DNA from: Symbiodinium sp. CCMP2592
Taxonomy: Eukaryota > Sar > Dinophyceae > Suessiales > Symbiodiniaceae
NCBI GenBank assembly: GCA_905221615.1
Contig: CAJNDT010005556.1
Span: 451,059-515,058 of the forward strand
Direction of reading: 5' to 3'
DNA length: 64,000 nt
The translations under genes were made by a program, and so were the position numbers. The notes below the pieces were generated by a model that saw nothing but the letters and a program-made list of their open reading frames with translations, had not been told where the DNA came from and did not search any database. Shown piece by piece: positions 23,139 through 57,840 of this stretch (positions are counted from its first letter, which is position 1; each line of letters starts with the position of its first letter).

Positions 23139-23391
23139 ACAGCAGCAGCAGCAGCGGCAGCAGCGGCAGCAGCGGCAGCAGCAGCGGCAGCAGCAGCAGC
23201 GGCAGCAGCAGCAGCAGCAGCATGATGCAGTGGTATGAGCAAAAGTATCAGCAAAAGCAATAGCAGTAGTTATGGTACTAGTAGTCGTCGGAGTCGTAGT
23301 CGTAGTAGTCATAAGTAGTAGTAGCAGTAGCAGTAGCAGTAGGACAGTAGGAGTAGTAGTAGTGGTAGTACTAGCAGTAGTAGTAGTAGTC

Positions 23392-23444
<53 letters not shown>

Positions 23445-23455
23445 TGTTGTTGTTA

Positions 23456-23501
<46 letters not shown>

Positions 23502-23681
23502 CGTAGTAGTCGTAGTAGTAGTAGTAGTAGTAGCAGTAGCAGTAGCAGTAGCAGTAGCAGTCGTAGCAGCAGTAGTAGTAGTAGTAGTAGCAGTAGTAGT
23601 GGTAGTAGTAGTAGTAGTAGAAGTAGTAGCTAGTAGTAGCAGTAGTAGTAGTAGTAGCAGCAGCAGCAGCAGTTCTAGTAC

Positions 23682-23726
<45 letters not shown>

Positions 23727-23860
23727 AAGTAGTAGTACTAGTAGCAGTAGCAGTGGCAGTGGCAGTGGCAGTGGCAGTTGCAGTGGCAGTGGCAGTAGCA
23801 GTAGCAGCAGTAGTAGTAGCAGTAGCAGCAGTAGTAGCAGTCGTCGTCGTAGTCGCCATT
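23139..23860. repeat. Very long trinucleotide microsatellite (CAG then AGT)
   Basis: About 90 bp of CAGCAG/CGGCAG is followed by about 580 bp of AGT/GTA with AGC, GGC and CGT variants. The 250-aa V/S frame and the 186-aa T/Y frame are translation of this array. Graded variants (GGCAGT near 23755-23800) show local re-amplification. Confidence 0.95.
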
Positions 23861-39766: not shown

Positions 39767-40681
39767 ATGTCCCTAAACCTCCAACCTTCAGCCCCAAAAC
39801 CTACAATCAGAAAGGCTCCCTCCCGTTTTCGCGAGATGGCTGCGTTGCTCCCCAAGTCCGAGTTTTCGGCACTTGGTACCGCCTTCGTGGAGACAGAGCT
39901 CGCGAATGCCAAGAAGAAGTTCGATGAGGCACAGACGAATCGTCAACTAGCAATATCCCGAGTGCAGCAGCATGAGGCAGACTGCCTTGCAGAGGAGCGT
40001 CACTGGATGGACATACAAAGCAGAGAAAGAAGACGAGATGAGGCTGCCCGCCGTATTCAGAAATGGTGGGTGCGCGTGGTCATGTACGGTACGAAGTCCT
40101 TTCCGTTGAATGAGATCTTAGAGCATCACCGGCTGCTTCGCGCCCGGCAGTGTCTAGGGGAAAACCTCCTGGATCTGCGGCGCTGTGTGCATGATTTGCA
40201 TATCGAAGAAGCCGATCGTGAAAACTCATGCGTTCGGATTCAAAGGTGGTGGCGCAAAGTGCTGGCCAAGAGGATTATGAAGATCATTGCCATGTATGGC
40301 AAGGTAGCCAAAATGAGGGACATGGTGGAAGGAGCCGCTGCCAAGATACAAGCGATCGTCAGGGCCAACAGAGCTCGCCGAGAAGTTACTGTGCTACGTG
40401 AAACGCGGAGGGTGGCTGAAGAAGAGGCTGAAAGACGGCTGGAGCAAATCAAGATGCAGGCAATTGTAAGCATCCAGAACACCTATCGCAAGAGTGTGGC
40501 TGTGAAACAGGTTCAGCGACTGAGAGCCAGAATGTTTGCAGCTATGATGTCGCAAGGTGGTTCAGATGTGGATATGCCGCCTCACATGAAGAACAAGCTA
40601 CAGCCTTTGTCACGCTCCTCCTGGCTGAAAGGTACACCGAAGGCGACTGCCAAGAAGAAGCGCGAAAAGTACAGCAGCTAG
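39767..40681 (+). CDS. IQ-motif (calmodulin-binding) protein, single long exon
   Basis: The 304-codon frame ends TAG. Four IQ-like motifs are visible: RIQKWWVRVV (about residue 95), RIQRWWRKVL (156), KIQAIVRANRARR (195) and SIQNTYRKSV (236). IQ motifs bind calmodulin or related EF-hand proteins; such repeats with charged helices are common in myosin necks, ciliary and cytoskeletal scaffolds. An N-terminal helix with FVETELANAKKKFDEAQ and a Lys-rich tail flank them. The first ATG lies in CCCTAAACC-like sequence; ATG 39836 (MAALLPKSEF) is a better start, or the region is the last exon of a larger gene with an acceptor near 39795-39810. It lacks introns, unlike the rest of the window. No signal peptide. 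Confidence 0.85.
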   Translation: MSLNLQPSAPKPTIRKAPSRFREMAALLPKSEFSALGTAFVETELANAKKKFDEAQTNRQLAISRVQQHEADCLAEERHWMDIQSRERRRDEAARRIQKWWVRVVMYGTKSFPLNEILEHHRLLRARQCLGENLLDLRRCVHDLHIEEADRENSCVRIQRWWRKVLAKRIMKIIAMYGKVAKMRDMVEGAAAKIQAIVRANRARREVTVLRETRRVAEEEAERRLEQIKMQAIVSIQNTYRKSVAVKQVQRLRARMFAAMMSQGGSDVDMPPHMKNKLQPLSRSSWLKGTPKATAKKKREKYSS

Positions 40682-40856: not shown

Positions 40857-41010
40857 TTTAGTTAGGGCTTAGGGATTTAGGGTTTAGGGGTTTAGGGTTT
40901 AGGGATTTAGGGATTTAGGGGTTTAGGCGTTTAGGGATTTAGGGTTTAGGGGTTTAGGGTTTAGGCGTTTAGGGATTTAGGGTTTAGGGGTTTAGGGTTT
41001 AGGGTTCAGG
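40857..41010. repeat. Telomere-type repeat block, TTTAGGG orientation
   Basis: About 150 bp of GGGTTTAGGGATTTAGGGGT-like units with TTTAGGCG variants, lying between the IQ gene and the retrotransposon target region. Confidence 0.9.
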
Positions 41011-41141: not shown

Positions 41142-41155
41142 CCTCCTCTTAGCTC
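41142..41155. repeat. Target-site duplication of the retrotransposon (3' side)
   Basis: CCTCCTCTTAGCTC, identical to 55333-55346. On the minus strand it follows directly after the element's A-rich end (GAGAAAGAAA). Confidence 0.85.
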
Positions 41156-41247
41156 TTTCTTTCTCGGTGGCTTGGGGTCCTGAGGACGCGCCTCATGCGT
41201 GTCTAAATTCTTGTGAAACGGAACGAAGAGGGGAGAGCGGCGAGTTC

Positions 41248-44200
41248 TTACTCCCGGGCCGTAAAGATCCCGTTAGAGCGTTTCTCGAAGCCGCTCTCAA
41301 TCACCCACGTCGTTAAGGGCTCCAGACAACGGAGCGCGACATTGGAGGCAAGGAGGCTGGCAGGAGACGAGGTTGAAGCCTGAATAAAGGCGCCAAGGCT
41401 GTCGCAAGCAGCCTCAAGCCAAAGACAATGCCGGCGCACGTGAGCAAGAGGAAGGCTGGCCTGGAACGGATAGACAAAAGAAGGCAGCGGCGGCTCATCG
41501 AGCCGAAACACGGCCTCAGGGCCCGTCATGACGAAAGAGCAGCGGCAGGCAACCGGAGGTACGAGAGGTGCGCAAGCAGGGCTGCTCTTACGGCCAGTCT
41601 TGGGGCGCCGAAAGTCCTCGCACCACAGCTCCGGATCGAGGAGCAGGACAGTGTCAGCGGCGCAGGCATCAGAGCCCGGCTGCGCCTGCACGTGGCCAGC
41701 CCAAGCTTCAATGGTGGCCTTCAGAACCGAAAGGGGCTCGACGAAATCGGTCACAGTATCCCAGACGACATCAGGCTCTAGCGAGGGAAGACCCAGCAAG
41801 GCATCAAGGAGACCCGGATGCACGACGGCAGAATCCAAAGAATCAGGACCAGCGCCGAGAGCCCCTTCGACTTGGCACGGAGGCTGCTGCACATGAAGTG
41901 CGGGAATATCCTCGCCGGCAGGCCCAGATGGCTTGAAGGTACCCCAGCGAGTACGGCAGGTAGCGGAATGCAGCAGATGCCGTCGCAGCCGACTGTGATT
42001 GGCATAGAGACGCCCACAGCCAGAACAGAGCGGAGCGGCCTGCTCACGCGCGAGGAGCGTAGCGGGGGCTCGATAGCCGTGGCACTTGGCTGCATGAACC
42101 GCCCATGCGGCTCGCGTAGAGAACGCGACCCGGCAGAGAAGACAGGCATCCCGAAATTCAACCTGGGCATTGGGGTCAGTGACGTCTGGGCGGGCGGCAC
42201 ATCCAGTCAGACAAAGGGCTTTACGGACAGCTTGAAAGGCTGCGAAGGCACCTAGACGGAGACACTCAAGGGCACGCGCACGCTTCACAAGACCACGATA
42301 CAAGCGGGGCCTGGAAGAGATGAGATCAACCCAGCTGTCCCAGTGGCTGACCGGATCCCGCAGGGGTGAAGTGTCTGCAACCCAGCGGAACATCCATGCA
42401 CAGGCATCCTGAACGGCCCCTGTGAATGAGCCATCTTGTTTAAGCAGCGCCCATAGCACATCGGGTCCAGTAGAGACAAGCTGGCGTGCATAGCGCAGCC
42501 TCTCGACCCTAAGGATTGTGAGGGCATCCGGCTGGCATAGCAGGGAGCACATAGTCTCAGTGCTCACCTCCTGGTCCGCATCATGCGAAAGACCCAGGCA
42601 TTGCCGATAGAGCGCTCCTAGACACCGGCTGAAAGCCTGAAACTCTCCAGTCTTAAGAGTGCCCCAGGCGCCGCTGCCGAAGGTGAGCCTTGAGATGACG
42701 AGCGACCGTAACAGGCAGCCCTTCCTTGCAACCGTGAGGCGCTTGGACCTGAAGACCTTAGTCCTGCCTTGGCGGAATGCAACCCAGGCGTGGGAGATAC
42801 GCTGCTTGATTTCCGGCATCAGGGAACCAGCTGCGGCAACCTTGACCCCCAGGTGTTTGTACACCTCGACGAGAGGCAAGCTTTCGCCCTGGCGGTCTTC
42901 CGCTAGGACTGGCACAGATGCACCGCCGGAGAACACACAACGCCTAGCTTGCCTGGCACCTCGCCCACGCAAGGCAACAACAGCAGCTGCTTTGCCGGGG
43001 CCGAATGACAGGCTGTACCCATAACCGGCAAAGGCGTCAACAAGGGCCGACGTTTCGACGCCAAGCCGGTGAGCAACGGTTGAAGGGTCAGCAAAGCAAA
43101 GGTAAGAGGCAATGTCATCCGCCCAGACAACCTCATTGAGGGGAGCAGCAATGGACGGCCGTACGGAGGCAGTGAAGGAGCGAACGCCGTCCCATAGGAC
43201 CTGCGGAACCGATTCAACACCTGAGTCACCTTGCGCCTCGGACCTCAGCTGGTCGCGGAGGGCGAGTATATCAGGGACCGTGACCCCAAAGAACAGGTCA
43301 GCCCAGGAGGACCCCGGCCGACTGCCCTTGGTGGTGACAATGTGTTGATGGTCACCAGCAAGAGTCATCCAAGTGTTGTTATTGAAATCGTGCGTCAACG
43401 ATTCAAGCCACGGATCTGCACCCCCGGCACTCAAAGCGCTGGGCTCGCCAAGCCTGTCCAGTACCTCGGGTGGATGCGGACCCTCATCCCGAGGCGGGGC
43501 ATCAGGGTCGCGTGCTGTCAGGCCACGGACAGCATTGTAATACGCAGCTGCAACGTCGGCAAAGAGGATCGCACCAGACAAGGAGAGGCTGGCTCGCCAG
43601 GCAAGGAAAGAGCGGCTGAGGTGGGCTCCAAACAACACCGTGGTACTCTTCTTGCCACCAATTTGCACCGGTAGCGACTGGTGATCGAAGAAGCGATAGA
43701 GCGCCGGCCTAAAAGCACGGTGCAGAGTTTTAGCCACCGTAGACAGAAGCATGATGGCCCGATATGAGGAGCAGGCAAGTTTGCTGCCCCGACCTTTGTA
43801 CATCCACGTGAGGATGCCTGATTTAAGCCCAATGGGCTCGTGGCACTGCAGCCCGATTTTGAGGAGGAGTGGTACAAGGAGGAGCTGCCACTGAGTGGGG
43901 CAGGATCTGCCAAACTCCACTGGTACTCCATCGGGACCACTGGCCTTGCCAACCTTAGCGGCAAGAATGGCAGCAAGAACATCTGCCGGCGCCGGAAAGT
44001 CAGCCAGCGGCACACAATCCGGCATCGTCGCAGGAGGGCCCGACAGGGCAGCAATCTGCTCAGGGGAAGCCGCGTAGCCGCCTTCAATGTCGCTAAAGTG
44101 TTGCCTCCACCTAGCAACCGTAGAGGCTGGCGTGCTGCAGAGCTCACCTTTTGCATCGAGGAGTTGTGGCAAGACTTCGGGAGCATACGGCTTGCGCTTG

Positions 44201-47200
44201 CGGTGCCCAAGCAGCTTCCTGAGGGCATCAAAGGAGGCATCACGACCTTCCCCAACTTGGTCGGCGAGATCGGAGAGGTAGCGGGCACGATCGGCGCGAC
44301 ACCCATGGCGGAGGCTCCGGGCTGCGTCCTGTAATGCAGTGCCAAGATCTCGCTCAAGAGTGCGTGCCTGCTTCATCCACCGGGTGGAGTGCATCACCTC
44401 TGCCAAAGTGCGGCCAGCAACCCGCCACGTAGCGAAGGCAGCCGCAACGGAATGGAAACGAATGGCATCCCGCAGTTGTGCAAGCCGCCGCCGCAGGTAA
44501 GCTACACGTGCGTGGAGCTCCCAGGTGGCATCAGAGAAGTACGGGTGTTGTCGTCCGCATTTCGGCATGGGAAAGGCCCGGCCCAGCTCTTCCTGAATGT
44601 AGGAGACCAACTGCGCAGCGTGGGCATCAGAACTAACACCCCAAGGGATGAGAGGGGCATTGCTCAGGATGGCAGCAATCTTTTCTTTACCATCAGGAGT
44701 CATCATGGCCTTGGCGTTAAAACGGCGGCCAGCAGAAGCTCGGCGTCCGGCTTGGAATGCAATAGAGACCTTCACAGAGGCCAAGGCAGCAAGGTGGTCA
44801 ATGACGGGTTGACCGGCGTGGATGGCTGGGTCGACCCAAGAGCATACCTGGGCAGTCTGCCATGCCTGGGGCATGCAGACATAGTCAAGTCGGCTCATGG
44901 CACCATTGCGTTTCTGCACATAGGTGCCACCAGGCCCATGCTGCGTGTCCGGCCAAGTGGACGGGAGCCAGAGTCTAAAACGATGAGCCATAGCATGGAG
45001 AAACTCACCCGCAACATCCTGTTCAGATGCGTGCTGTGCGCCGACGGCGCTCGATTCAACAGACCCTAGATCAGCATTAAAGTCCCCCAGAAGGACAAAA
45101 ACCCCGCGGGAGCTGACGCCCTCAAGAAGCCGACTTGTCTCACGCCACCATGAGTCAAGCAGGCCAGCCTCGGAGCCTTTGTGGGGCCCGTGCAAGGAGG
45201 CAAAGACGATACGAACGGCACCGTTATGAAAGAGGACCAAGAGCCGGCGTGGGTCGGCATGCAGGACAACAAAGCTCTGCCGTTGGAAGCAAATCTCCGC
45301 CTGACTACTTGTCGGCGCGGTAACAACTCGGGCGTCAGTCCTAAACCAAAGTTCAGTACCAAAGTTACCTCGCAAGGCACCCGAACAGAACCGGAGGTAG
45401 CCGCCGGTGTTCACCATGCCGCTCTCCGTTCGGGCTTCCTGGACCGCCAGGACATCAACTCCAGCATCGTACAGACAGTTGGCCAAGAGCTGGGGCCGCC
45501 CAATGGCAAAGGCGAGCCCGCCTGAAGAGTGATCTCCAAACGACTTCCCACACAGGGACAAGACATTGTACGTGCCAACCGTAAGACACAGCACGCCTGC
45601 ACGCTCTTGAGTGTCGGAAGCACCCTGCAAAGGCCGAAAAGGTGCAAGCAGCTGCACCGGGCTTAACCCAGCATCGGAGTCGGACGGGGGCAGCGGACCT
45701 GGTCTCAAGGGCGGAAGAGAGTGGTGTCCAAGCTGGCATAGGACCGCGAGGCCAGCCCAGTCAAGGGCAGCGCCATCGTCCCGCCACCATGAGGTATATG
45801 CACCGGAAGTCCAGGAATAAATGCCAACAGGGTGGCCCCCGGCAGCCTTACGAGCAGCAAGATCCGCCAGCTCATTGGCCAGAATTTGCTGATGACCAGG
45901 TGAGTGCCGGAAGGTCCGGGTGGCAGAGCTGAGGGAGCGCACCATTGATCCAAGGCGGAACAAGGTGCCCGCAATACCGGCGCCCGCCCCTACCATGGTA
46001 CCTTCAGCAAGCCCGAGGGCCGCGAGGCAATCAACACCAAAGACAAGGGGCACGTCGGCAAGACGGCAAGCAGAGATCCGTAACGCCACCAGGAGCGCGC
46101 AGCACTCTGCAACAAAGGCTGAAGCGTCACAGTTGTCGACGAACAGCTGAGGCACGGCCCCTGAGACAACACCAACAGTGGAGTGTCGGGGATCAACGAA
46201 CACACAGGCCCATCCACACAGCGCAGGATGGCCCTGCGCTTCAGGCGTGAAAGAGCCGTCAGTGAAGCAGTGCAGAGCCGCACCACATAGGTCTGCAGCT
46301 AGACTGCGTGAGGCATCGATTTTTGCCCGATCAGAGCGCGTGGCAAAAGCCGCAAGTTCAGAGATCGGTGCAAGCTGGATGTCTGGCTTCAGGAGACCAC
46401 GCAGAGCCTCTGAGTCGAAGTTCAGGTTGAGGGGACCTATGTGCAGGGGGCCCTGAGCAGGCATCGCATCAAGGGCCTTCTCGATGCAGTGCGACGTCGC
46501 GGGAACCTGGTACAAAGGCAAGTCCCAAGCCGATGAGGCAGGGAGCAGAACCCCATTAGGGGGTGCAACAAGATCGAGAAGACACAACGTCGAAGGGTGC
46601 ACAGGGACAGCAGCATCCCCGCCACATTGGTCACCATAACTACGCTCAAGGAAGTGCTCGGTGAGGGCTTCTAGGAGCGTGGCTGCCAGAAAGAAGGCGT
46701 GGCCGTCATCGTTCTGCACACACTCGTCAAGGAGGGTGACGAGCGGCTCGACCGCCTCGACAGCAGGAACATAGACAGCAGACGTATCAACCCAGGGGAC
46801 AGCAGGGGCACCCCATGGGCCGACCGATCGACACGGCGTAGGAAGAGGTCGCGTACCGGGGGAAACAACGCCATGGGCGCAAACAGGCCCAAGGGTTGCC
46901 GCATCATCCGGCGGCAGCACCGGAGTAGCATACACACCGGGAGGCTCCACGGAGGCAACTAAGACAAGTGCAGCTAGGAACCCAAACTGGTGTTGTTGCG
47001 CACCGAAGGCGCCAAGGAAAGTGGCACCGCGCAGGAGCGGCACAATCGCATTGCTGACGCACCTTGGCCGAGCAACGTGAGGGACAGTGCTAAGTGTGCT
47101 AAGCAGACCGAGCGCCGCTGCAACGATCACGAGAGAACCCCAGCAGCAGCGGGGGGAAAGCCTCACAGGGCCCGCACATCGTGTAGTGGGCCCAGAGCAA

Positions 47201-50200
47201 GACGAAGCGTTGACAACACCAGGGGCAGTCGAAGCACCAGGCCGTCGACTGGCAGGCTGCGCAGAAGCAGGGGCCGGGGCGGTCTGAGGCGGCGGCCACA
47301 CACTGTCCCCGTCGGAGTCATCGGGCGGCTCCACAGACGTGCCACCAGCCGCATCAAGAAAAGGTGGAGCAGCGTGCTGACGCACAAGGTGAACGGTCAA
47401 GACTTGCCCTGGAGTAAGCCAAAGCCACGTCCAGTGGCTTGGCACGCCAGAGAAACATACAAGCCACCCGACAGGAACACAGTGCAGAAGGGAGTTGCGT
47501 ATGAAGGTCAAACTCACATGGCCCTCGTCTGTGCGCAAGGGTAACCATCCTATCAGCAAGGCCCGACCATCAATGAGGCACATGACCTCCTCGGCCCCAT
47601 CTGGGGCATCTCGTCCTTGGGTAAGCACAACCACATTGCGGCAACAATACCCACAAGAGGAAGCGTTGCCCTGCTGGGGTCGGGCAGGTTGGATGCTCAA
47701 CTCCCGAAGGGCAAAGCCAAAACGCACCGCAAGATCAGTACGCAGATAAATTGACCGTTCAGGAAGAAGGCGGAAAGGGTGGTTACCCTGGTCAGTGGCA
47801 ACTAGATAATGCTCCGACATACCAGCAAAAGGCAGAGGCGGGTTAGGGTGCCACTGCTGTGGCGTTTGGAGCATTTCCTGGAGCAGAAAGGTGGGCGGTG
47901 GCAATCGCCCTGGAGGCAAGAAAGTGACACACATACCTGTGCTGACAGGAAAGTCTCCCCCCGCCGGAATTGGGTCGATAGCATCCGGGAGGAAAATCTC
48001 GATCTCGGCCGCGGGGTGCAACCCCGCCAGTTGCAGGAGGCAGTATTTGTCGACGACTCCTGCAGTATCGGCCGCAAAAATGCGTCCATCCCACTGCGTC
48101 AGGTCTAAACAGATAACTGCGCGACGATGCAGCCAGGCAGGCAGAGCGACGAAGGCACCCCACGACGGCCTTGGCTGCGGCCAAACCGCAACGAGATCCG
48201 GGAACACGGCTGCCTTCTCACCGTCCCGGCAGGTTTGCAGTAAATCAAGGAGATCCGGAGCTTCCTGGGGGATCATCAAGTGCAAAGGCAGCACTTCGGG
48301 CACAAACCCGGGGGCAAAAATGCAGAAGACCGCGGCGACAACAGTGTCGCCCTCGGCAGCAGCATCGAGATCTTCAGCGTCGTCCTCGTCAAGCGCTGGG
48401 ATGACTGGCAGCCAAGCAGGGTCAAAGGGCCAGCGATGACCGAGGAAGCGGGTGGCTGTGCGGGCAGCATCCAAGCTACGCTCAGCCGCAGGGGTAGCAT
48501 CGGTAGGCTCCTGGAGAAGCTTGTAGTGCACTGCGGGAAGTAGGGCTTTCAAGCCCCGGAGTACTTCTGGCATATAGGAAATCTGTGCTGAGAGTACAGA
48601 GGTATCCTGCTGCTTGCCCTCAGGAAGGGCGTGGTGTTGAAGAGCCGCAGGCCACGTGATAACTCGATCAGCGCAGTCAAACAAAGTGGGGCCAAAGAGG
48701 CGCCAAAGCAGACTCGGGTCAAATACTTTGCAGCGCCTGCCTTTAGCGTAATGGCTGGGCTCACCAGAAGGGCGAACCTCGTAACCACCAGTCGTCTCCT
48801 GTGCAGCACTATTGACACGATGGCATCCGTCTGGGGAAGGCCCGCCGCTTGCATCGTGATCACAGTCGGCGTGATCGGCTCCCGTGCCGTCAGAGAGAGC
48901 AGATCCATCAGGAGGTAGCCCACCCAGCGGCAGGACCTGAACGGTAAGGACCTCCCCAGGATGCACAGTAAGGAGCCTATCATCCCCCGGCAAAGGCCTA
49001 CCACCCCGAATCAGAGTGCGATACCCGGCAGGCAGTGCACGAGTGCATCGCTCACAGATAAGCGCAGCAGACACCTGACGATCAGGAGTGAACGCCCATG
49101 TGAGGCCGCAGTAAATAGGCCGAAAATCAAGGAAGTAAATACAACCTTCCTCGGGCAACTCCGGATCAGGGAGGTGAGCCTGTGTCACAGCTAAGACAGT
49201 GTGTACGCTTCTGCCGGCGTCAAGGTAGTCGCAGAGATCAGGGCACGCAACCTGGATGGCAAAGGATCCAAGTGGCCTTTGCAAGGCGGACGCAACAAGT
49301 GGGCCAAGAAAGCGTCGACGGCCGGCTTCGCATTGGAGGCTGGTGGGTCCATCATCACCAATGAGGTAGGCCCAAGCACCATCAGCTGTCGGCGGCACGT
49401 CGGAAACATCCCAGCCGTCAGTAGCGGCAAGCATGGCCAAGAGCGAGCACGAGACATATGAGTGGCAGGGAGATGGGGCAATCGTAACACAACTGCCGTG
49501 CCGAAGGAAGCATTCCTGCCGAGGGAGAAGGGGGGTATCGGAGTTGGGCACGTATACGTCGTAGGACTCCTGTGAAGGCACCCCGGCAATTGCAAGGATG
49601 GATTCCCGGTCTAGGGCCGGCGACACGACCCAACAAAAGACACCACCGTTGATGAGAGTGCAGTCAAAGAGAATGCTGGTATCGGCCGTCCACGCAGGAC
49701 ACGCAAGCAAAACACCAAAGTGTCCGAGGGTTTGCGGATCGGCGGCGGTCAGCACAGAGGCCCTGGCCCGTGCGCGTGGCGCGCGACTGGCTTGCACACG
49801 GTTAAGGACATCGGCAACTGCCAGGCCAACTTCAAGCTCAAGGCGCACGACCTCGGGTGTATATTCTTGCATGACAACAAGGAAGCCTGCGGAGATGGTA
49901 GTACCATCACGGGCACCACGCCCTCGAGGGGAGCGGCTGCGATCCTGAGTGGCGGCTGCCGCAGGCTCCGGCGGGGCAGCAAAGACACCAGCGGGGGGCC
50001 CTGTTGGCGCAGCTGCAGCTGTCTCAACGCTCATGTCGCCATCAGATAGAGCCTCGCTGTCACCGCCTTCATCACCTTCATTACCAGCATCCCTGTCAGG
50101 CATGGGAACAAACGAGGCATAGACAGGCCTTCCAGCAGTGAGGAAGCACCCTTCGGCACGCTCAGTCAGACCTTCAAGGTGGAGGCACCAACCCGGCGGT

Positions 50201-53200
50201 GCGAAGGTCGACAAGACGTTTTCAAGGTCATTTCTATCAATGCGCCCGTCAGTGGAAGTAAGCAACAACCAACCTTGAAGCAGGGCGCGACAGTCAACGA
50301 CCGTTGCTTGAAGCTCCGGTACAAGCTGGAGCGTGGCAGGGTCTCTTGTTGCCGCAACGGCGCACACATTACGGCAATAGATCCCTCGAAGCGCCACATC
50401 ACCCATAACCGGGAGCGCCGGTTGAACAGTAAGCTCAGCCTCGGGGATGTCAAAGGCACGGGCAATAGCGGCATGGTCTGCAAAGAAGGCCGCGGGGGAA
50501 ACTGGAAAGCGCCGGTGGCCTTGTTCACACACGGCGCAAAACCCGCCTCCGGCAGGCCCAATGGGCAGCTGAGGCTCAGCATCCCATGTGGCTGAGTTCT
50601 GCAGGACATCCCGGAGCGAGAAAAAGGGTCCCGGAAGCGCGAAGCGCCGGACAACGAAAATGCAGATGCCAAGGTGCAGTGGGACGGCATTATCTCCTAG
50701 CGGCCTATCGCTAGTGCCAACATAGATGTCGACATCATCGCCATTATCGATCTCGCAGAGCCGCAGAAGGATTCCGCGTGATGCTACGGCTGGGGCATCA
50801 GCTGCGAACAGCCGACCATCGAATGCTGAGAGGTCACAGCACACCGCAATGTCAGTGGCAGCCCAGCCCGGGAGCGCCAACAGAAGCCCCGAATCCTGGG
50901 ACGGCTGCGGGTCAACTTCGACAAGCAAAGGGTAAAGCCTGGTGTTGACTGGATCTCGCACCTGGGGGACAAGGGCAAGAGCATCTTGCACCGTGACCGG
51001 TGCCTCCAAAACGAGAGTCACAATTTCAGGCACGTATTCGATGCGCAGCACAAAGAACGTGAACTCTGCTTCTCCCTCGGCAATAGACGCCGTGCCAGAC
51101 TCAGAGCCTTCGTCAGTGTTATTGACATCGGCAAAGTCATCTGCAGCCGGGAGGTACCCCCAATGGCGACCAGCTTGGCGCACAAATTCTCGCGCGTGGT
51201 CCAGGCGATCACGCTGTGCAAGACTGTGCGAAGTGGGCTCGCGAAGGAGCTTGCACATAGCGGGCACAGGCAAGATGGGCAATGCAGCTATGCAACAGCG
51301 AAACCCAACGAGGGGGCAGGTCACCGGAAGAAGGGCACTACCACTAGAGGGGGCCCAACAACCGTCTAGTGCAGGGACAGAGGCCAAGCTCCCATTATAA
51401 CCCCAGTCTGCATGGGTACGGTCGCGGGACCGCGACCTGCCACGGAGTGCAAGGGACTGCACGGGCCTCGCAGGGGCCCCAGGCGTCACTGAGAAGGGGA
51501 AAACCCGTCGACGCCCCGGGCCGGGGTCCTGTGGATCTTCATCGGGAGGGTCAGCAGGACCGTCGAGTGAGTCGTCCTCAGGCGATGCATCCAGAACGGC
51601 CCGAATAACAAGGGCATCATGCCCATAGAGGCGGACATCCGCGCCCATTGGCTCCCAGCCAAGGGCGACGAGCCGCATGCCCGATGGCACCCTCACGCCT
51701 GCAATAGCTGCCACGGAGGGGAGGTGTAGCCAGGGAACGTTGCTGTGGGCAATGCGAACACCATATCCTAGGCTCCTGAAATCGCAAAGGGCGAAGAAGT
51801 CACGGCGTCGGTACGCCGGCGGGGCATCAAGTTGCGCGCTGGGCAGCTGGGCAATGCACGCAGCCTGTGAGCAAGGGTTGCCCCGGTAATCAAGATCAGG
51901 CGTTAGGAACACGGACACAGTGAACTCACCATCCCGATAGTCCCACATAGAAGCCATAGCAGACAATGGCGGCTGCCCATAATGGTGGTGTTTAGGCATG
52001 AACACACGTTCAGTACCGTGGTGCACCAACACTCCAGTAGCCGGCGTGGAACAAGGCATGTCGAGCGGCGGCTGCCAGGAAAGAGGATCTTGAAACAGCT
52101 CAGCCGCAGTCTGGTGGGAGAGCCATTCCTGAGGCGGCCGGCGGAAGGTGAGGACATCCCCGTCAGACAGCCGCAGGGGCGCGCCTGATGGGTGCGCAGC
52201 GGGGTTATTGCCTAGGTGCAAAAGCATATCAACATCAGAGTAGGACGCTTGCATGGTCGCGAAATGCAATAGCTCCTCGAAGTCGATATCCTCAGGCAAA
52301 AGGCAGGCGTAATAATGCCCTCCAACAAAAGTCAGGTCAACGATTACCGCCCTCATAATGCCATCAGGTGAGAGGGAGGCAATGGAAGGAAACCTGATAA
52401 GGGTGCACCAGCCTTTGAACTGCATCGGGCATGCCGGGACGCACCTGTCATAGAGTTCCGCGCCGGCACCAGGTGCCGCTTGGAGAACAGCATCGATGAC
52501 ATAGTCGACCCCATGGTGCGGGGCGCAAAGAACAGCAAGCCTGAGAGGTCTGAAGTGGGGTGTAAAGACCATCACGCCCAGCCACCTGGCATCATCGCTG
52601 CCAGTGGGCTCAGGAAGTTCTGAAAGATAATCCAACGAAATTACCTTTGCGCTACCCTGGTTAAATGGCGAAAGGGGAGGAAACCGCCCTGAAAGTAGAG
52701 GCTGGCCCACATGATGGGCGAGCTCCTCCAGATCGACATCATGCGGCCTTCGCCCGGCAGTGACAGCCACACCTCCAGGCATAGCGGCAGCAAGAGCAAT
52801 GCCTGCAAACCGGAGAGGATGACGAGAGGGGCCTAAACCAAAATCCAAGGCCACAACTGGGGCGGGAAACCAACAACATCCTAGTAAGATCCCTAGGGCA
52901 ACGCGGCCGAGGCCAGTGCCAGAAGACCCTGCCAGGGAAGTGCGACCGTTGGTGGCAGCATTGCGAGAGCCATATTTATCACAACGACCAGCAGCTCGTT
53001 TACCTTGCCTGCGGATGTGGGAGTCCCGAAAACAAGGTCGGCCGCAGAGAGACGGGGCTGGTCGGGAACAGACTCCAAGGCCAAGTGCAACGGAAGTAGG
53101 CACACCAGCGCAGGGGAGCGAGATGAGCCTGCCGAGAGGCTCGTGCCTGCCCGGCAGGGCCAAAAGCAGAACCTTGCAGATGGCAAGTGAGAACAGCCCC

Positions 53201-53960
53201 AACAGACTCCTTCCTAGCCCGACCACAAAGGTCTCGATTGCACACAGCCACGGGAGAAAGAGAGACCAAGCGTCAAAGGGCGGATCAGTACCAAGTCCAC
53301 GTGGCGCACAGTAAGGAAAAGCAGGGAGAGGCCCCTGAGCCACCGATGCCTCTCTTAGGCCCCTGCTAGAAAATAGGGCAGCCTTGCAAACCAGATGGCT
53401 GTAACAAGGCGCGAAAAGCCACCGAGCCGCACCGTGGCAGCCAAAACAAATGGCGCCATTGCAATGCGCGAAGGGCGGGGCCACCCAAGCCGGTAGGCCA
53501 AAACAGGCACCACCAGCAAAGGAAGCAGAGGAGACTGACGACAGACACCTGCTCGCTACCCAAAACCAAGGCAGCTCACAGTGGTCGACGCCGAGCAAGG
53601 CAGAACCCACAGAGGGGCAGAATGGGTAGGAGAAAGCACGCCTTGCCAACCAAGACAGATCTTTACAAAAAGGCTGAAGCTGTACACCCTGTACATACTT
53701 AGTCAAGGCCCACTCATTGAAGATCTCCTCGGCAAGGAGGCTCCTAGACCGCACAAGGCTCAACCCGACGAGCAACAGAGTCGAGGAGTGCAACCCAGCA
53801 CTCACAAGACAAGGGCTCACCAGGGAACCAAGGGCGGGCTGAGAAACATCCGAGCCATGAGCATGACAAAGTGCCTCAGAACAGGTAGAGGAAGACAGCA
53901 GGAACCTGAACTGTGCTTCAGAGCCAGGCGCCACTACTCCATCCGACCCAAACCAGGGGA
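41248..53960 (-). CDS. Retrotransposon ORF2 polyprotein (modules, RNase H, endonuclease, RT, C2H2)
   Basis: The open frame extends from 55077 to TAA 41248-41250 without a stop (4,609 codons), but the part above about 53960 overlaps ORF1 in another frame and is probably not used; the effective protein is about 4,240 aa. Residue numbers below count from 55077. Four diverged modules lie at about 830-1160, 1350-1636, 1740-2045 and 2262-2560. A hydrophobic stretch follows (SLVIVAAALGLLSTL, about 2655), then RNase H (2938-3073), APE-type endonuclease (3166-3430), reverse transcriptase (3700-4000) and C2H2-like fingers (about 4320-4370). Relative to ORF1 it is in the -1 frame, with no ATG until 52782, so expression by -1 frameshifting or non-AUG reinitiation is inferred. 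All catalytic residues seem present except that RT motif C is WADD. It would copy its RNA at a nicked target site. Confidence 0.9.
41960..42150 (-). other. ORF2 domain: two C2H2-like zinc fingers
   Basis: CLLCRVAFSTRAAWAVHAAK followed by CHGY, then CSGCGRLYANHSRLRRHLLH and SATC. The C-x2-C-x12-H spacing is finger-like. Fingers of this kind C-terminal to RT occur in some LINE clades and probably bind the element RNA or the target DNA. Confidence 0.7.
43090..43970 (-). other. ORF2 domain: reverse transcriptase
   Basis: The motifs in order are GKASGPDGVPVEF, YRAIMLLSTVAKTLHR, motif A ILFADVAAAYYNAV, motif B KGSRPGSSWADLFFG and motif C VWADDIASY. Motif C has Trp where LINE RTs usually have Tyr or Phe before the xDD pair. 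The A-to-B spacer holds an insertion of about 40 residues rich in Pro, Asp and Gly. Confidence 0.93.
44780..45585 (-). other. ORF2 domain: APE/EEP endonuclease
   Basis: Catalytic signature in order: GTYNVLSLCG (Asn), LAVQEART (Glu), VLLGDFNADLG (Asp/Asn), SRLDYVCM (Asp) and QPVIDHLAAL (Asp-His). These are the residues expected of the exonuclease-endonuclease-phosphatase fold used by LINEs to nick the target. Confidence 0.92.
45855..46280 (-). other. ORF2 domain: RNase H, located upstream of the endonuclease
   Basis: LHCFTDGSF (Asp), FVAECCALLVAL (Glu), PLVFGVDCLAALG (Asp) and FRHSPGHQQILANELADLAA (His and Asp) match the D-E-D-H-D series of RNase H1. It would remove template RNA after first-strand synthesis. 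In LINEs with RNase H this domain normally lies after the RT; here it precedes the endonuclease by about 90 residues. Confidence 0.9.
47370..48320 (-). other. ORF2 module 4 of 4 (unknown function)
   Basis: Contains PEVLPLHLMIP, VWPQPRPSWGAFVALPAW, DLTQWDGRIFAADTAGV, GYCCRNVVVLTQGRD, LIDGRALLIGWLPL and LTPGQVLTVHLV. Preceded by the linker KLLQEPTDATPAAERSLDAA. Its closest relative is module 2. No known domain recognised. Confidence 0.75.
48915..49870 (-). other. ORF2 module 3 of 4 (unknown function)
   Basis: Contains PEVVRLELEVGL, GHFGVLLACPAW, GGVFCWVVSPAL, YDVYVPNSDTPLL, YFLDFRPIYCGLTWA, CERCTRALPAGY and VHPGEVLTVQVLPLG. Most diverged in its middle part. Preceded by the Arg/Ser linker DRSRSPRGRGARD. 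Confidence 0.75.
50165..51045 (-). other. ORF2 module 2 of 4 (unknown function)
   Basis: Contains PEIVTLVLEAPV, VEVDPQPSQDSGLLLALPGW, DLSAFDGRLFAADAPAV, VDIYVGTSDRPLG, GIYCRNVCAVAATRD and VVDCRALLQGWLLL. Preceded by RSRSRDRTH and the linker KLLREPTSHSLAQRDRLDHA, which recurs before module 4. Confidence 0.75.
51590..52600 (-). other. ORF2 module 1 of 4 (unknown function)
   Basis: Contains WLGVMVFTPHFRPLRLAVLC, PLRLSDGDVLTFRRPP, LSWQPPLDMP, ALCDFRSLGYGVRIA and VPSGMRLVALGW. It shares the D-x-R-x-L-x-x-G core and the G-x-V-L-T-F turn with the other modules but is the most divergent. Confidence 0.6.
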
Positions 53961-55283
53961 CGCTGTGGTGAGCTCCTCCGAATCGTCGTCGTCCAGGAGC
54001 GAGCTCCTCAGCGAGTCCGCCGCTGCAGCTTCGTGTATCGGAGGGCCCGATCCTTCCACCGTCGCTTTGGGCACAGGGCGCGTCACACCAAAAGGCGCCA
54101 TAGCGGATCTGGTGGCACGCCTCTTCTCCGATAGGCGCTCCGCCAACTGCTGAGGAGGGTCCGCGGCCGCACCAGCAAAGGGTCCAGGAGCAGCCGGGCC
54201 CGTCGGCATCGCACCATTGGTCGCATCCACCGGAACAGAAACACCAAAGTGAGCCAAGCTGGGTGAGGCCATATACGGGTCCTTGTGTAGCGTAGCTACA
54301 GGAGATACACCATCTGTAGGCAGCAACCTCGAGGAAGAAGCGGCCGCATTGGATGATGGCGGTGGTGTCATGGGAGGCAAAGGCGTACCCCTGCGGGGGG
54401 GTGTACACGGTACGCCCCCAGCCAGCGAGGCTGGATCCACCCCAGCTTGCTTGAGCGCCTTCGCCAACTTTGCCACATCCACATGCTCGGGCCCAGGGGA
54501 GGGCTCCTGCATCGAAGCCACAATCTCGTCCCACTCGTCGAGGTCGCTGGAGAGATCCATGGCCGCAGGCCCTGCTGAAAGGGCGGGAGCTGTACTCTGC
54601 AGCTGCTGGTACGCTTGCGCCTGCAAGCCCAGCGCCACCTTGAGGTCGTGCTCCGTCTGCGCTTGCTCCTGGACAAAGCGCTTCTTTTCCTGCTGTAACA
54701 TGGCCTTCATATCCGCCACGTAGGTGCTCCATTGCAGCTGCCGATCGGAGCGCTGCTTCTGGAGCCGCGCAACTCTGGAGTCCAGCTTCCTGGTCATGTT
54801 GACCGTATGCTGAACTGTCTTCAGCAGAGAGGGCGCACTCCCGGGAGCCTTGGGGCCTGCCAGGGCGCCATCCGCCGTGGGAACGATAGCAAGCTCGTCC
54901 GGCTTCTTGTCGTCGAAAGCCGGGAATGCCCTGCCATCTGGCTTCTTCGGTCCACCACCACGCCGCGGGTTCTGTGCCCGCGATTTGGGCGACACAGCAG
55001 CACCACCACGCCAAACATGCCATTTGCGATCGTCCCATGACTGGTCTTGGCCCTGCTCCCAGTCCTGGTCTTTCCACTTACCAGAACCGGAACCGCGGCG
55101 GCCCATTGACGGGGCTGAGTGGTGACTTCCCAACCGCGAAGTGTCCCTCGCCCTCGCCGGCAGTCCAGAACGCACAAGTTGGCGGGTGCGACGTCGGGCC
55201 CGCGAACGGGTCGCCCGAGCTCGTCGGTGCCAGGTGGGGCTTCGACGTCGAAGCCCAATGATCAAAACGTGCCACGCGGGCAC
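53934..55283 (-). CDS. Retrotransposon ORF1 (coiled-coil protein)
   Basis: ATG at 55283 opens a 449-codon frame; a second ATG (MGRRGSGSGKWKDQDWEQGQ, codon 59) is also plausible. The N-terminal part is Arg-rich and would bind nucleic acid. A coiled coil runs from about residue 155 to 235 (ARLQKQRSDRQLQWSTYVAD and FVQEQAQTEHDLKVALGLQA). A Pro/Ser-rich middle and an acidic end (LLDDDDSEEL) follow. No CCHC knuckle or RRM was seen. LINE ORF1 proteins usually trimerise by a coiled coil and package element RNA; the same role is inferred here. The stop (TAG) overlaps the open ORF2 frame. Confidence 0.8.
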   Translation of the reverse strand: MPAWHVLIIGLRRRSPTWHRRARATRSRARRRTRQLVRSGLPARARDTSRLGSHHSAPSMGRRGSGSGKWKDQDWEQGQDQSWDDRKWHVWRGGAAVSPKSRAQNPRRGGGPKKPDGRAFPAFDDKKPDELAIVPTADGALAGPKAPGSAPSLLKTVQHTVNMTRKLDSRVARLQKQRSDRQLQWSTYVADMKAMLQQEKKRFVQEQAQTEHDLKVALGLQAQAYQQLQSTAPALSAGPAAMDLSSDLDEWDEIVASMQEPSPGPEHVDVAKLAKALKQAGVDPASLAGGVPCTPPRRGTPLPPMTPPPSSNAAASSSRLLPTDGVSPVATLHKDPYMASPSLAHFGVSVPVDATNGAMPTGPAAPGPFAGAAADPPQQLAERLSEKRRATRSAMAPFGVTRPVPKATVEGSGPPIHEAAAADSLRSSLLDDDDSEELTTASPGLGRME

Positions 55284-55332
55284 TGGGGCCTACAGCTATC
55301 GCACACCGCTCGCTGGTGAGCGTCTTCTGAGC

Positions 55333-55346
55333 CCTCCTCTTAGCTC
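55333..55346. repeat. Target-site duplication of the retrotransposon (5' side)
   Basis: CCTCCTCTTAGCTC, identical to 41142-41155, directly beyond the element's 5' end. Confidence 0.85.
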
Positions 55347-57639: not shown

Positions 57640-57840
57640 TTTAAGACACCCTAAACCCTAAACCCTGAGCCATAAGCCATAAACCAGCCATAAACCCTAA
57701 AGCCATAAACCTTAAACCCTTAGCCCTCAACCCGAAGGCATAAACCGTAAACCTTAAGCCAAAATCCTATACCCTAAACCCTAAGCACTAAACCCTTAAA
57801 CCTTAAACCCGAAGGCCTAAACCCTAAACCCTGAAGCCGC
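57640..57840. repeat. Telomere-type repeat tract with CATAAACC variants
   Basis: CCCTAAA units mixed with GCCATAAACC, a local variant amplified several times. Confidence 0.85.

Follow-up and report, generated by a model that had tools for sequence, protein, structure and literature searches.

ORF2, an open reading frame (ORF) on the minus strand of a 64,000-nucleotide stretch of Symbiodinium sp. CCMP2592 DNA (contig CAJNDT010005556.1, positions 451,059 to 515,058; hereafter the window, in whose coordinates all positions are given), is part of a giant APE-type long interspersed nuclear element (LINE) of a dinoflagellate, and it carries four homologous segments of about 325 residues each, here called modules. 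The joint reading that we favor, with confidence a little short of even, is that this giant APE-type LINE carries a domain family of its own, makes its two proteins from one mRNA by leaky scanning and uses the module array as a scaffold.

The modules of ORF2

All four modules were delimited on the minus strand by profile envelopes: module 1, of a first-position type, by a hidden Markov model (HMM) envelope at 51583..52587, and module 2 (50095..51069), module 3 (48922..49896) and module 4 (47371..48339) by Smith-Waterman alignment together with the HMM. The original prediction had claimed four tandem modules in ORF2; this was confirmed, the profile boundaries falling close to its own. When pairs were compared by Smith-Waterman against 500 shuffles, the mutual similarity expected of all four was found among modules 2, 3 and 4 (z 61.5 for modules 2 and 4, 30.4 for 3 and 4, 25.3 for 2 and 3) and between modules 1 and 4 (z 9.5), but the one-to-one similarity of module 1 to modules 2 (z 2.0) and 3 (z 1.2) was not significant. 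Module 1 is recognizable as a member only through a profile: an HMM built from 47 non-first modules alone recovered 21 of 21 first modules (E 3e-29 to 6e-10) and matched module 1 of the window at E 1e-20, compared to a best E of 0.017 among 420 shuffled controls.

The D-x-R core (D257 and R259) was invariant in all 63 aligned modules (alignment A1, with 63 of 68 full modules, five close relatives being omitted), and P54, Q55, D79, G135, W163, G230 and P289 were nearly so. The remaining motifs that had been listed as shared were not found in all four window modules; by eye, module 1 is without P-E-V/I, LALPxW and DGRxF, and module 2 without the V-L-T ending. The modules appear to be without an invariant Cys/His or acidic set suggestive of an enzyme or metal site. 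A KLLxEP motif stands ahead of module 2 (51145..51255, minus strand) and module 4 (48415..48525, minus strand); no more than 12 of the 47 linkers between modules contain it, and in each of these it lies 59-62 residues upstream of the next module. Serine/arginine (SR) patches resembling RSRSPRG also recur, by eye, in the linkers of several copies, e.g., at 49897-50094.

Searches of Pfam with the 63 modules gave no fitting family (seven families match one module each, best E 0.0048), a sequence search of PDB gave no family match (best E 1.5), and NCBIfam and PHROGs gave no match with modules 1, 2 and 4 and ORF1 as the only queries. The description of an undescribed, tandem and diverged module ahead of an RNase H thus held in these libraries, and by comparison the module is a domain family of its own that they do not name. 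Relatives elsewhere were sought in IMG/VR and GTDB with peptide words of module 4, which reach close relatives only, and none of the 2 IMG/VR and 37 GTDB pattern matches was confirmed by tblastn; among eukaryotes, the search was confined to the present genome.

Within the module, hhalign showed homology between quarters B and D (probability 90.5, p 1.3e-6), with scores of 31.7 versus at most 16.3 among 60 permuted controls and 29.3 versus 13.7 among 40. When propensities were crudely averaged over 83 modules, each of the four quarters fitted a beta-beta-alpha-beta-beta pattern, with a fragmentary helix in A and B. Both results would suit modules that are chains of four beta-grasp (ubiquitin-like) subdomains each, acting as protein-protein docking units. 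We consider this unlikely, though worth keeping in mind: the other five quarter pairs were at background against permuted controls, no PDB chain named ubiquitin was met up to E 10, and in a comparison with five ubiquitin-like sequences, permuted controls scored equally high in 3 of 60 cases for quarter D and in 21 of 60 for quarter B. Sequence-profile similarity to ubiquitin-like families was not supported by Pfam or PDB, and the five-sequence yardstick was at background. The best PDB matches were at E 1.3 for quarter B and E 0.14 for quarter D, the latter to a chain named DIG5.1a.

The arrays of the window ORF and 20 other ORFs (21 in all) were compared. ORF2 has two to five full modules (L014 has an additional partial one), and the first-position type is distinct from the others: the tree has a single split with all 20 first modules on one side (support 1.0) and all 46 others on the other (0.88); L014, whose second module is broken, was omitted from this tree. 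The last modules do not form a clade of their own; 20 of them lie inside one of 42. In the same tree, L011 modules 4 and 5 group with L021 modules 3 and 4, while the other non-first modules of the two do not, which suggests that modules have been exchanged in blocks.

Substitution patterns indicate that the modules are under purifying selection. In L015/L017, the sole close pair with all modules, the ratio of nonsynonymous to synonymous substitution (dN/dS) was 0.16, 0.18 and 0.13 in the modules, compared to 0.48 and 1.56 in the linkers (the latter on a dS of 0.02, with very few changes) and 0.42 downstream, and a 217-codon stretch with part of module 1 gave 0.14 between the window copy (W) and L059. 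In distant pairs, synonymous sites were mostly saturated and module similarity broadly equalled that of the downstream part; modules were clearly more alike than the downstream part in W/L009 (63-78 % versus 38 %), L022/L028 and L012/L013, and L025/L028, L018/L020, L019/L024 and W/L010 were mixed, with single modules slightly below the downstream similarity. An array without function for the element, kept as a captured or drifting spacer, would be in keeping with the variable number of modules, but this is highly improbable in view of the purifying selection, weaker on linkers, the low module ratios of L015/L017 and the D-x-R core kept in 63 of 63 modules.

A giant LINE and its relatives

The insertion is 14.18 kb long (41156..55334, minus strand) and is bounded by two copies of its target-site duplication, GAGCTAAGAGGA (12-14 nt; 14 with GG), at 55335-55346 and 41144-41155, as known from the single copy with both ends read, that of the window. 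No direct repeat linking the two ends, as expected of long terminal repeats (LTRs), was found among the repeats listed for 38000-60000. ORF2 spans 4609 residues as an open frame (55077-41248, minus strand) and 4596 residues if translation starts at the second ATG on the presumed mRNA (41248..55038, minus strand; ATG at 55038, stop codon at 41248), and is to our knowledge among the longest single LINE reading frames known.

Behind the module array, ORF2 encodes in order an RNase H, an APE-type endonuclease, an L1-like reverse transcriptase (RT) and zinc-finger-like motifs; an RNase H followed by endonuclease and RT is an unusual arrangement. In the RNase H domain (45778..46440, minus strand), D61, E112, D137, H183 and D193 are invariant in nine of nine aligned copies, seven of which, the window copy not among them, matched PF00075. 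The endonuclease (44824..45573, minus strand) matched PF03372 (E 6.3e-8). The RT (42178..44400, minus strand) was delimited with a profile of 13 copies searched against PDB chains, which matched LINE-1 ORF2 protein chains (E 1.7e-11 to 5.1e-11) and R2 (E 6e-4 and 9e-4); the top match, 8c8j, is named only RNA-directed DNA polymerase, and Pfam gave no RT match in 13 of 13 copies. The zinc-finger-like motifs (41953..42144, minus strand) were read by eye from the translation. An APE-like endonuclease, an RT of the non-LTR type and a target-site duplication without LTRs are thus present, and the element has every LINE-defining feature that could be tested, its presumed mobility resting on related copies and long open frames.

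Such copies are numerous. A 69-residue piece of module 1 matched 64 places in the 1.1-Gb genome, with frames of at least 3000 residues at 25 of them and at least 4000 residues at 15. In the same genome, searches gave 1,207 first-look candidates with module 4 (124 scored, which match), 1234 with a distant module (122 scored, which match) and 569 with the first 200 residues of ORF1 (150 scored places, which match). Peridinin-chlorophyll protein was matched 143 times in this genome, often in tandem, and 0 times in 14 control genomes; the dinoflagellate spliced leader occurred in 429 exact copies, its reversed word in 0. The host was accordingly taken to be a peridinin dinoflagellate.

The 5' end of the element was AGGGCTCAGAA-like in six of six copies compared, with changes in L058. 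This end, GGGCTCAGAAG (55310-55334; L057-L061), is similar to the end of the dinoflagellate spliced leader, GGCTCAAG, and may be a relict of trans-splicing. TATG/TA-rich stretches, seen by eye, adjoin the 5' end in four of six copies (L057, L058, L059 and L061) and may reflect a target preference of the element.

Like LINE-1, the element has two ORFs, an APE endonuclease before the RT and a target-site duplication, and among named PDB chains its RT profile matches L1 ORF2p best. It differs in the 4596 residues of its ORF2, in having an RNase H and the module array ahead of the endonuclease, and in a 1.1-kb overlap of ORF2 with ORF1. PMC5890265 describes the SymbioLINE-Dnmt elements of Symbiodinium as two-ORF LINEs with a DNA methyltransferase in ORF1; they resemble the present element as dinoflagellate LINEs with two ORFs and an accessory domain, but its extra modules are in ORF2, not ORF1. 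Identity with SymbioLINE-Dnmt was rejected, as Pfam gave no DNA methyltransferase match up to E 1 in window ORF1 or ORF2. An RNase H upstream of the RT, as found here, is called unique in oomycete Utopia in PMC4640811; the passages covered give Utopia a restriction-like endonuclease and mention no module array.

Elsewhere in the window, a 304-residue ORF with IQ calmodulin-binding motifs lies just past the 3' end of the element (39767-40681, plus strand), telomere-like CCCTAAA arrays are dispersed (e.g., 1684-1903, 40862-41010 and 57648-57832), and a long GTA trinucleotide array lies within a 250-aa open frame (23275-23853).

Two overlapping frames and their start codons

ORF1 (53934..55106, minus strand) encodes 390 residues with a basic N-terminus, a coiled-coil-like stretch (by eye) and an acidic C-terminus ending in SPGLGRME. 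It had no Pfam match, and its dN/dS was 0.13 between the window copy and L059. The original prediction had placed no ORF2 start inside ORF1, and the overlap of the two frames is an addition to it. Over this dual-coding stretch (53934..55038, minus strand), 367 ORF2 codons are without a stop, compared to a mean of 15.4 stops and a minimum of 5 in 1000 synonymous shuffles of ORF1. In all seven copies with upstream sequence, the ORF2 frame is stop-free over an ORF1 overlap of 1.0-1.3 kb, where the shuffles gave means of 13.4-16.5 stops and minima of 4-7 in 1000.

The leader was free of ATGs ahead of the ORF1 start in six of six copies with the 5' end, and the next ATG after that of ORF1, 17-68 nt on, fell into the ORF2 frame in all 19 copies compared. 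At position -3, the ORF1 ATG has a pyrimidine (a weak context) in 18 of the 19 and the ORF2 ATG a purine (a strong context) in 17; in the window, the ORF2 ATG lies 68 nt past that of ORF1 and has G at -3 and +4. The set of 19 includes 13 short start windows (about 140 nt each), which are part of the places matching from ORF1 residue 1 or 2, and excludes L062, which is cut at its 5' side. Because several copies are near relatives (W/L059, L066/L070, L067/L071, L069/L073 and L014/L015/L017), the 19 copies here and the 21 above represent fewer independent lineages.

A weak ORF1 ATG followed by a strong ATG in the ORF2 frame is a signature of leaky scanning, and on this evidence it is strongly indicated that one mRNA serves both ORF1 and ORF2. 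Ribosomes skipping the weak ORF1 start would initiate at the ATG that follows and translate ORF2 across its entire overlap with ORF1. Some observations weigh against this account: among the 19 copies, one ORF1 start and two ORF2 starts depart from the context rule, and within the overlap the ORF2 frame is weakly conserved, with 3 synonymous versus 25 nonsynonymous changes between the window copy and L059. For the same pair, dN/dS was 0.42 in the part of ORF2 that lies past ORF1 and ahead of the array. The overlap seems to be held open rather than conserved in sequence. A 2A-like NPGP motif was matched once in 21 ORFs. Neither leaky scanning in a LINE nor these modules were found described in the part of the literature covered, which included PMC11453091 and left subscription papers and preprints mostly outside; the words leaky scanning and retrotransposon do occur together in PMC5972666 and PMC5009743.

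A possible role for the array

The modules are acidic (mean isoelectric point 5.2-6.4 by position) and poor in lysine (position means of 0.0-1.0 %, with a single module at the fifth position). Lysine content was 0.25-1.01 % in the modules compared to 1.09-2.94 % downstream, and was lower in the modules of 21 of 21 ORFs; since arginine and third-position A were broadly similar in the two parts, nucleotide bias is not enough to explain this. The array of the window copy, linkers included, has 0.6 % lysine, and among six ORFs examined the longest lysine-free runs were 835 residues in the window ORF and 1190 in L023.

Because the modules are acidic and lysine-poor, plain RNA binding by the array seems unlikely, and the RNA-binding role first suggested for it is disfavored; ORF1, with its basic N-terminus and coiled-coil-like part, would be the more natural RNA-binding protein of the element. 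The earlier interpretation as a whole was thus partly supported. An array acting like an ORF1p-type nucleic-acid chaperone, its modules binding and packaging the element RNA before reverse transcription, would account for tandem copies ahead of an RNase H and for the SR/RG-rich patches seen by eye in some linkers, but the composition of the modules and the existence of a separate ORF1 leave it a small probability.

We instead tentatively favor the array as a structural scaffold of the retrotransposition complex. Being acidic, lysine-poor and without invariant catalytic-looking residues, it would probably bind protein partners or itself rather than RNA, holding the complex together, and its lack of lysine may let it escape ubiquitin-dependent turnover. 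The complex would perhaps be held at a membrane through hydrophobic segments flanking the array, and the enzymatic part would then act by target-primed reverse transcription. Lysine deserts are described for ubiquitin-proteasome proteins in PMC10169902 and PMC10665810; the likeness lies in long stretches with little or no lysine, and the difference is that here these stretches are in conserved retrotransposon modules, where a role against ubiquitylation is hypothetical.

The hydrophobic region before module 1 (52846..53205, minus strand) is strongest at 53149-53205 and 52846-52902 (19-residue Kyte-Doolittle averages of 2.15 and 2.14), and one to six hydrophobic segments per copy were counted in this region in six copies, with no shuffle control. 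Past the array, a segment at 47092..47148 (minus strand) reaches 2.02 in a 19-residue window (shuffle p 0.23 in the window copy), and a window of at least 1.6 was found in 17 of 21 copies, all but one starting 66-171 residues past the last module. The ORF2 N-terminus was hydrophobic beyond the constraint imposed by ORF1 in four of seven copies (p<0.05), two of them the near-identical window copy and L059. These segments are compatible with membrane contact, on weak statistics.

Several points weigh against the scaffold and its membrane contact. The segment past the array is absent in 4 of 21 copies and beats composition shuffles (p<0.05) in only 7 of 21, three of them near relatives, while 14 of 47 inter-module linkers also beat shuffles, only 3 of 47 reaching the cut-off of 1.6. 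The seven N-termini gave p of 0.003, 0.089, 0.037, 0.003, 0.018, 0.258 and 0.184, and their hydrophobicity is perhaps partly a by-product of ORF1. A membrane-held array is awkward with an RT that must reach DNA. The RT also explains part of the lysine contrast, the RNase H and endonuclease of the window copy having 1.4 % and 1.1 % lysine.

The same segments could instead mark ORF2 as a processed polyprotein, in which a signal-peptide-like N-terminus is followed by hydrophobic segments ending in A-x-A, where signal peptidase would cut and free the modules from the enzymes. The hydrophobic N-terminus would fit this, as would the A-x-A-like triplets that often follow the segments past the array, but these triplets were read by eye, without a control, and cleavage on that side would place the RT in the lumen of the endoplasmic reticulum, so that we regard it as improbable. 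Distinctly unlikely, too, is that ORF2 is a virus-like membrane-targeted polyprotein combining a leaky-scanning start, an N-terminal signal, a lysine-poor module scaffold and the RNase H, endonuclease and RT. If it were, a membrane would be the site at which retrotransposition is organized, one candidate being the nuclear envelope, which dinoflagellates keep during mitosis.

The modules represent a protein domain family that is unnamed in the libraries searched and present many times in one genome. The overlap with opposite start contexts offers a simple explanation, open to test, for the making of two LINE proteins from one mRNA, and the array raises the equally testable question of why a LINE carries more than 1000 extra residues under purifying selection.

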